Shown here in pieces: positions 5,651 through 6,380 of a stretch of DNA of 41,938 nucleotides. Origin of the DNA: Candidatus Gottesmanbacteria bacterium RIFCSPHIGHO2_02_FULL_39_14 (GTDB taxonomy: Bacteria > Patescibacteriota > Microgenomatia > 2-02-FULL-39-11); assembly GCA_001779205.1 (NCBI GenBank), contig MFJM01000006.1, forward strand, positions 10,327 through 52,264, read 5' to 3'. Position 1 is the stretch's first letter; every line of letters starts with the position of its first letter. The position numbers and the translations under genes were made by a program. Under the pieces are notes generated by a model. That model did no database searches, was not told the origin of the DNA, and saw only the letters and a program-made list of their open reading frames with translations.

Positions 5651-5762
5651 TGTGCCAGGGGAGAGGATCCCGAAGATCACTTCCCGTTCGCGAGGTCTAC
5701 GTCCTCGCCTCACGGTGTCGTGTCTACGGGGCAGGTCGAACTCTGTGCCAGGGGAGAGGATC
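5651..5762. repeat. 19-bp direct repeat of the tRNA-Met 3' end flanking a GC-rich insert
   Basis: The string TGTGCCAGGGGAGAGGATC occurs at 5651-5669 and again at 5744-5762. The second copy is the complement of the tRNA-Met 3' end (acceptor and T-arm strand) plus two bases beyond it. The DNA between them is visibly GC-rich against an AT-rich background and holds small inverted repeats such as CGAGG...CCTCG. It also holds a further partial T-arm echo, TCGAACTCT. A duplicated tRNA 3' end is what integration or template switching at a tRNA leaves behind; here the insert is only about 75 bp. Confidence 0.6.
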
Positions 5763-5817
5763 GAACTCTCGGCCGCCACGTTATGAATGTGGTGCTCTAC
5801 CACTGAGCTACCCTGGC
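5746..5817 (-). tRNA. tRNA-Met (CAT), elongator-like
   Basis: Read on the minus strand this folds as a complete cloverleaf: acceptor GCCAGGG pairing with CCCTGGC and discriminator A, D-arm GCTC-AGTGGTA-GAGC, anticodon loop TTCATAA, and T-arm GAGAG-TTCGATC-CTCTC. CCA is not encoded. The G1-C72 pair and the lack of G-C triplets in the anticodon stem argue against an initiator. A tRNA-Ile2 whose C34 is modified by TilS has the same CAT anticodon and cannot be excluded. The base of the anticodon stem (A31-C39) is mismatched. Confidence 0.9.
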
Positions 5818-5887: not shown

Positions 5888-6217
5888 ATGATTGATCTAT
5901 TTAAAAAAAGATGCGTTCCCTGCGAAGGCGGAATGCCACCTGTAACTCCCGAGAAAGTTAAGGAATTACTTTCTCAAGTACCCCAGTGGAGAATGGAAGA
6001 GGGGAAAGTGGTAAGGCGGTTTAAATTCAAGAATTTCAAAGAAGCAATAAATTTTGTTAACAAGGTAGCTGATTTAGCTGAAGAGGAAGATCATCATCCC
6101 AATATTTCAATTTACGGCTGGAACAAGGTGAAATTGACTTTTTTCACTCATGCCATTAAAGGACTATCAGAAAACGACTTCATCATGGCCGCTAAGGTTA
6201 ATCAGATAACCTTGTAA
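5888..6217 (+). CDS. phhB: Pterin-4a-carbinolamine dehydratase
   Basis: This protein of about 109 residues has the PCD/DCoH signature EEDHHPNISIYGWNKVKLTFFTH, where two neighbouring histidines and the later TH are the expected active-site residues. The N-terminal half contains WRMEEGKVVRRFKFKNFKEAINFVN, typical for the family. The enzyme dehydrates 4a-hydroxytetrahydropterin. In bacteria without aromatic amino acid hydroxylases it is often kept for unclear folate or molybdopterin-linked reasons, and no hydroxylase is visible here. The first residues (MIDLFKKRCVPCEGG) carry a CxxC often seen in this family. Confidence 0.9.
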   Translation: MIDLFKKRCVPCEGGMPPVTPEKVKELLSQVPQWRMEEGKVVRRFKFKNFKEAINFVNKVADLAEEEDHHPNISIYGWNKVKLTFFTHAIKGLSENDFIMAAKVNQITL

Positions 6218-6240
6218 GCGAAGCTAATTTCAGTTATAAT
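6212..6240 (+). promoter_or_regulatory. Promoter of the initiator tRNA gene
   Basis: TTGTAA (6212-6217), a 17-bp spacer and a perfect TATAAT (6235-6240) stand 13 bp before the mature 5' end of the tRNA. The -35 box overlaps the last codons of the PCD gene. Confidence 0.7.
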
Positions 6241-6253
6241 TACTTCTTGTCAC

Positions 6254-6326
6254 CGCGGAGTAGTGTACAGTTGCACAGGAGGCTCATAATCTCCTAGGCT
6301 AGGTGCGACTCCTAGCTCCGCAACCA
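6254..6326 (+). tRNA. tRNA-Met (CAT), probable initiator tRNA-fMet, CCA encoded
   Basis: The sequence folds with acceptor CGCGGAG against CTCCGCA, leaving a C1xA72 mismatch, the hallmark that keeps bacterial initiator tRNA from EF-Tu. Position 73 is A and CCA is encoded. T8 A9 are in place, and the anticodon arm is GGAGG-CTCATAA-TCTCC. Oddities: the T-loop reads TGCGACT (G at the usual T55), the D-loop is very short (ACAGTT, without the G18-G19 pair), and the anticodon stem has only one of the three G-C pairs (30-40) normally seen in initiators. It has its own promoter and a strong terminator. Confidence 0.8.
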
Positions 6327-6339
6327 GGGTATTAAAGAA

Positions 6340-6370
6340 AAAAAGCTCCTCACTCGAGGAGCTTTTTTTC
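6340..6370 (+). terminator. Rho-independent terminator of the initiator tRNA
   Basis: A 10-bp stem AAAGCTCCTC / GAGGAGCTTT with a 4-nt loop is followed by a run of T. It lies 15 bp after the tRNA CCA end. Confidence 0.9.
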
Positions 6371-6380
6371 TTCCACCCTG

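Follow-up and report, generated by a model that had tools for sequence, protein, structure and literature searches.

Few tertiary contacts in biology are as conserved as the one between G18 and Ψ55. A tRNA gene at positions 6254–6326, on the + strand of a 41,938-nt stretch of Candidatus Gottesmanbacteria DNA (hereafter the window), has A at position 18 and G at position 55, and raises the question of whether its elbow is failing or is built in another way. The initial annotation took the gene to be a working initiator tRNA with a degenerate elbow, in which the contact between the D- and T-loops would be weakened. Comparison with relatives leads to a different answer: very probably, this tRNA is the cell's initiator, with an elbow that is not weakened but maintained through an exchanged A18-G55 contact.

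The initiator gene and its surroundings

ARAGORN calls a tRNA-Met(cat) at exactly 6254–6326 on the + strand, 73 nt long with the encoded CCA (6324–6326), which follows A73 and is not encoded in many relatives. Read from the sequence, the acceptor stem CGCGGAG/CTCCGCA, with a C1·A72 mismatch, is followed by T8A9, a D-stem GTGT/GCAC enclosing the 6-nt D-loop ACAGTT (6267–6272), A26, an anticodon stem GGAGG/TCTCC, a 4-nt variable loop TAGG, a T-stem CTAGG/CCTAG and the T-loop TGCGACT (6304–6310). Sequence and covariation place A18 at 6269 and G19 at 6270; in the T-loop, T54, G55, C56, G57 and A58 occupy 6304 to 6308. The anticodon CAT (6285–6287) lies within the loop CTCATAA, as sequence, ARAGORN and class alignment agree. 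The canonical elbow, G18-U55 plus G19-C56, is only half present: G19-C56 is kept, and 18-55 is A-G. The earlier description of G55, the short D-loop, the single G-C pair among the usual three of the anticodon stem and the encoded CCA is borne out by this reading; its statement that the G18-G19 pair is missing holds for position 18, which is changed, and not for G19, which is present and can pair with C56.

The gene combines the CAU anticodon with the unpaired or weak 1-72 position (here C1·A72) that characterize bacterial initiators. The mismatch, previously cited as the mark of an initiator, is indeed there, but it is not the only initiator state: U1-A72, which is capable of Watson-Crick pairing, is commoner than C1·A72 and occurs in most Microgenomatia initiators (e.g., L037, L044 and L076). 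The three G-C pairs 29-41, 30-40 and 31-39 are absent and A29-U41, G30-C40 and G31·U39 stand in their place; this composition had been correctly noted, yet what was presented as an oddity is the rule of the class, found in 131 of 137 aligned rows. Since the A-U/G-C/G·U stem is class-wide, the three-G-C stem is treated here as a typical, not a defining, initiator trait. Three initiators from other Patescibacteria classes (L332, L341 and L342) have C33 in the loop CCCATAA instead of U33, and resemble eukaryotic initiators in this respect.

Fast and default Rfam filters overlook this tRNA, which would fit a pseudogene or an assembly artefact. With permissive filters, RF00005 covers it from end to end and scores 41.5 bits (gathering score 29), which rules out the pseudogene reading drawn from the missed match, and an initiator covariance model built from 26 relatives scores it at 94.5 bits. 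With this model it is the one initiator in the genome, the runner-up being an Ile tRNA at 46.1 bits; the assembly comprises 72 contigs at 85.5% completeness, and uniqueness refers to that much of the genome. Near-identical copies lie in syntenic positions in relatives from separate assemblies, and the artefactual explanation deserves almost no credence. The 6254–6326 gene encodes the cell's initiator tRNA; the proposal of a working initiator gene survives scoring of the Infernal type and the search for a second, canonical initiator. Minimum-energy folding of the unmodified sequence gives no cloverleaf, and free-energy folding is uninformative here; the helix covariation count gives 97.3% of cells as paired and two-sided changes in 10 of the 21 pairs.

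The other CAU tRNA found in the genome, encoded on the opposite strand at 5745–5817 (ARAGORN, Rfam), is a tRNA-Met of the elongator type; its elbow is canonical, with GG in the D-loop and a TTCGA T-loop. Since the genome has a tRNA-Ile(UAU), isoleucine does not depend on a CAU tRNA, and no third one is expected. The initiator and the neighboring opposite-strand tRNA-Met recur together in relatives from the family, which carry the same type of initiator gene at the same place, and the gene retains its neighbors within family f1. The promoter and terminator reported earlier were both recovered on the + strand: a sigma-70-like TTGTAA-17-TATAAT at 6212–6240 by motif scan and, at 6335–6372 by repeat search, an intrinsic terminator composed of a perfect 17-bp inverted repeat with a 4-nt loop and a T run. 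As about 1.5 chance matches to the promoter are expected in the region, its placement, and not its rarity, backs it. Eight family members inspected by eye have a -10-like element upstream in most cases and a T-run hairpin downstream in nearly all, in sequences that differ from one member to the next.

A match to the formyltransferase family Fmt in the window's genome reaches 129.9 bits, under the curated cut-off of 201.5; counting this weak match, the family is found in 46 of 50 genomes. The four Patescibacteria genomes with no match to it (G280, G610, G594 and G320) all have A18-G55 initiators, and are too few to interpret.

In several relatives, the anticodon loop of the same initiator is split by group I introns of ~190–240 nt, recognized by RF00028 matches at L049, L050, L051 and L058 and by the same splitting of the tRNA at L052, L053, L055 and L056. 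The insertion site is apparently between U33 and C34, and the spliced product retains CUCAUAA. Group I introns in CPR tRNAs have been mentioned before (PMC8172020). Fast-filter tRNA finders can miss intron-split initiators, and likewise those with A18-G55.

Positions 18 and 55 change together

Among 137 parsed rows of the class, in which some genomes are counted twice, positions 18-55 are G-U in 77, A-G in 54, G-C in 6 and mixed in none. A scan of GTDB r220 contigs, overlapping this set, yielded 115 stretches (70 G-U, 8 G-C, 36 A-G and 1 A-U), with carriers in the Microgenomates group: Gottesmanbacteria, Levybacteria, Woesebacteria, Roizmanbacteria, Shapirobacteria and Amesbacteria. When initiators across Patescibacteria are compared, as had been advised, the 151 distinct sequences from Microgenomatia and other classes comprise 94 with G18-U55, 9 with G18-C55, 47 with A18-G55 and a single mixed one (Fisher p 1e-38 on the near-identical table 47/1/0/104, kinship ignored). 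The sole mixed initiator, L278 from Levyibacteriota, has A18 with U55; it is a candidate evolutionary intermediate. Intron-bearing initiators with a readable 3' exon obey the same rule.

The association also emerges when no target is preset. When every pair of columns in 95 equal-length sequences is ranked by corrected mutual information, 18-55 comes seventh, after five Watson-Crick pairs (27-43, 50-64, 51-63, 28-42 and 2-71) and 26-44, and the next pair below it scores less than half of its value. Other Patescibacteria classes make the same exchange with ordinary 7–8-nt D-loops, e.g., AGTAGTA with the T-loop TGCAAAT and AACAGTA with TGCGAAT. Among rows with A18, position 54 is looser (24 of 54 have C54), and C58 occurs in two. 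The Levitt pair 15-48, considered as a compensating change, follows no clean rule. Covariation establishes the coordinated 18/55 exchange, which is not what decay would leave.

The exchange is nearly confined to initiators

On the DNA examined, 215 other distinct tRNAs combine GG with U55 or C55. Leaving aside three further Met rows that are initiators, only three tRNA-His genes depart from this: one in the window's genome (C14:40682-40753; L028, L345) and two, L346 and L347, in two genomes of another family. The tRNA-His of the window's genome, with the D-loop AAAAGTA and T-loop AGCGTTA, has A18-G55 plus a reversed 54-58 pair (A54-U58). A same-genus relative has a canonical tRNA-His at the matching place beside hisG, which makes a local replacement possible. 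The swapped gene lies nearer to family f3 than to the genus it belongs to. Contamination was considered as its source and rejected, the neighboring HisG being 82% identical to that of the same-genus genome, where tRNA-His is adjacent as well. Within this set of genes the exchange is nearly confined to initiators.

Repeated switching on the tree

On an rpoB tree of 59 genomes, positions 18 and 55 match in every genome and 15 state changes are counted, of which well-supported branches force at least 12; the tree is a single-gene, quick-search one with taxa chosen to include both states, and the count is a minimum for this sample, not a rate. Three of the rpoB loci, L367 (G199), L394 (G232) and L397 (G206), are frames of 2344–2350 aa, about twice the usual length, which suggests an rpoB-rpoC fusion in one family. 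At least 12–15 joint changes with one exception among 151 sequences, together with the retained G19-C56, leave the view of a degenerate, weakened elbow unsupported and point to a maintained, swapped contact.

Decay could still be argued from the enzyme that acts on position 55. TruB is the Ψ55 synthase, and its loss might have relaxed the requirement for U55 and let the initiator drift. TruB was not found in the window's genome, in two other family members or in most sampled Microgenomatia; in the class it is present in 1 of 20 A18-G55 genomes as against 10 of 20 with G18-U55, and in family f17 in 0 of 3 as against 3 of 3. These raw counts are suggestive, but TruB loss as a driver is unsupported once phylogeny is considered: of 12 independent tree pairs, 2.8 show TruB going the same way and 1.5 the opposite way, with no difference in 7.7. 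The link does not extend to other classes, where A18-G55 genomes mostly retain TruB and many TruB-less genomes retain U55; the sampled non-initiator tRNAs remain G18/Y55 except for one tRNA-His variant; and a strict two-site rule is unlike drift. The covariation largely refutes this explanation, which we regard as quite improbable.

The switches could instead be gene replacements between two old whole-gene alleles spread horizontally, and not repeated double mutations. The group I introns mark the locus as open to mobile elements, and the affinity of the swapped tRNA-His to family f3 fits such traffic. Yet opposite-state near neighbors in families f17 and f82 share the D-arm type of their clade, so that 18 and 55 seem to have changed in place; more broadly, the 5-nt D-loop in f17/f9, the GAGG/CCTC D-stem in f82 and the acceptor types follow clade independently of the 18-55 state, and the conserved neighborhood within f1 also argues against replacement. 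Horizontal spread of alleles is unlikely and, being concerned with origin only, would leave the contact as A18-G55.

A model of the exchanged elbow

In known tRNAs, residue 18 is wedged between 57 and 58 and paired with 55, and G19-C56 provides the flat outer face used for stacking by the L1 stalk, RNase P and T-box RNAs (PMC4810234; PMC5309774; PMC7912444). A UGNRA triloop often takes up an A from outside, whose pairing with the G of the triloop makes a composite GNRA; in the TPP riboswitch, the ligand occupies the place of the outside A (PMC2258182). The T-loop of the window's tRNA has the UGNRA sequence (TGCGA at 6304–6308), and A18 covaries with its G55. In the exchanged elbow, A18 would replace G18 between residues 57 and 58 and pair with G55 instead of U55 or Ψ55, and G19-C56 would remain Watson-Crick. 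With A18 as the outside A, U54-G55-C56-G57-A58 would then be a closed UGNRA lone-pair triloop, in which G55, C56, G57 and A18 would form a composite GNRA-like fold, its G·A pair of the sheared type; the U-A pair that closes such a triloop is of the trans Watson-Crick/Hoogsteen kind. The covariation argues strongly for direct contact between A18 and G55; the sheared-type geometry, proposed because a U-G-C-R-A T-loop plus an outside A fits the UGNRA motif, is moderately well supported by analogy, and the motif is not copied perfectly in all relatives, some of which have C54. The outer elbow face, with G19-C56 as the stacking surface for other RNAs, would stay as it is, so that recognition of the tRNA by RNase P, the L1 stalk and the ribosome should persist; conservation likewise suggests that function is unaffected.

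Covariation could also arise if 18 and 55 never touched and an external partner, such as IF2, RNase P, rRNA or an enzyme that modifies or formylates the tRNA, read both residues; a swap almost limited to the tRNA that meets initiator-specific partners fits this. However, known tRNA structures have 18 and 55 in contact (PMC4810234; PMC7912444), single families contain both states, which would require external partners to switch repeatedly, and the same pair is found in a tRNA-His, which meets no initiator-specific partner. Readout by a partner has a very slim chance of being the explanation, and the direct A18-G55 contact is retained.

More generally, we lean toward the existence of two interchangeable elbow architectures, the classic G18-Ψ55 and a composite-GNRA A18-G55, between which the Patescibacteria initiator switches repeatedly by a coordinated double change and elongators almost never do. 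If this is true, the initiator, bypassing both EF-Tu delivery and the A site, is free of the constraint behind the near-universality of G18-Ψ55; release from the demands of EF-Tu delivery and A-site entry is the interpretation we prefer. No report of an 18-55 exchange was found in the open-access full text searched, and A18-G55 is most fittingly classed as a recurrent structural variant, and a new one, of the bacterial initiator tRNA. A natural, reversible and many-times-repeated replacement in an essential single-copy tRNA amounts to a ready-made set of compensatory mutants, with which one can probe the purpose of the 18-55 contact and why elongators keep G18-Ψ55.

Comparison with known systems

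The window's tRNA shares with the E. coli-type tRNA-fMet the CAU anticodon, C1·A72, G2-C71, C3-G70, A37 and a candidate formyltransferase gene in the genome. It differs in having A18-G55 in place of G18-Ψ55, a 6-nt D-loop and a 4-nt variable loop, A29-U41 and G31·U39 instead of G-C pairs, and U11-A24 instead of A11-U24 (PMC7949028). The three-G-C stem has been described as highly conserved in initiators (PMC7949028).

Mycoplasma initiator tRNAs have incomplete three-G-C stems and are like the window's tRNA in lacking three G-C pairs in the anticodon stem; we know of no 18-55 exchange in them.

Eukaryotic tRNA-iMet and some tRNA-Ala, with A54·A58 (PMC7566577; PMC9023262), offer another case of an isotype-specific change in a conserved tertiary pair of the T-loop. 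Those tRNAs alter 54-58 and keep G18/Ψ55, which is reported to be conserved in all tRNAs analyzed (PMC9023262), whereas here the 18-55 pair itself is exchanged. A structural parallel lies in UGNRA lone-pair triloops, T-loop motifs that an outside purine closes, e.g., UGAGA in the TPP riboswitch (PMC2258182). The points in common are U54-G55-C56-R57-A58 and the outside A that occupies the intercalation site; the difference is that the motif, whose geometry here is assigned by analogy, would sit in a tRNA elbow, where motif position 2 is normally U or Ψ and the outside residue is G.
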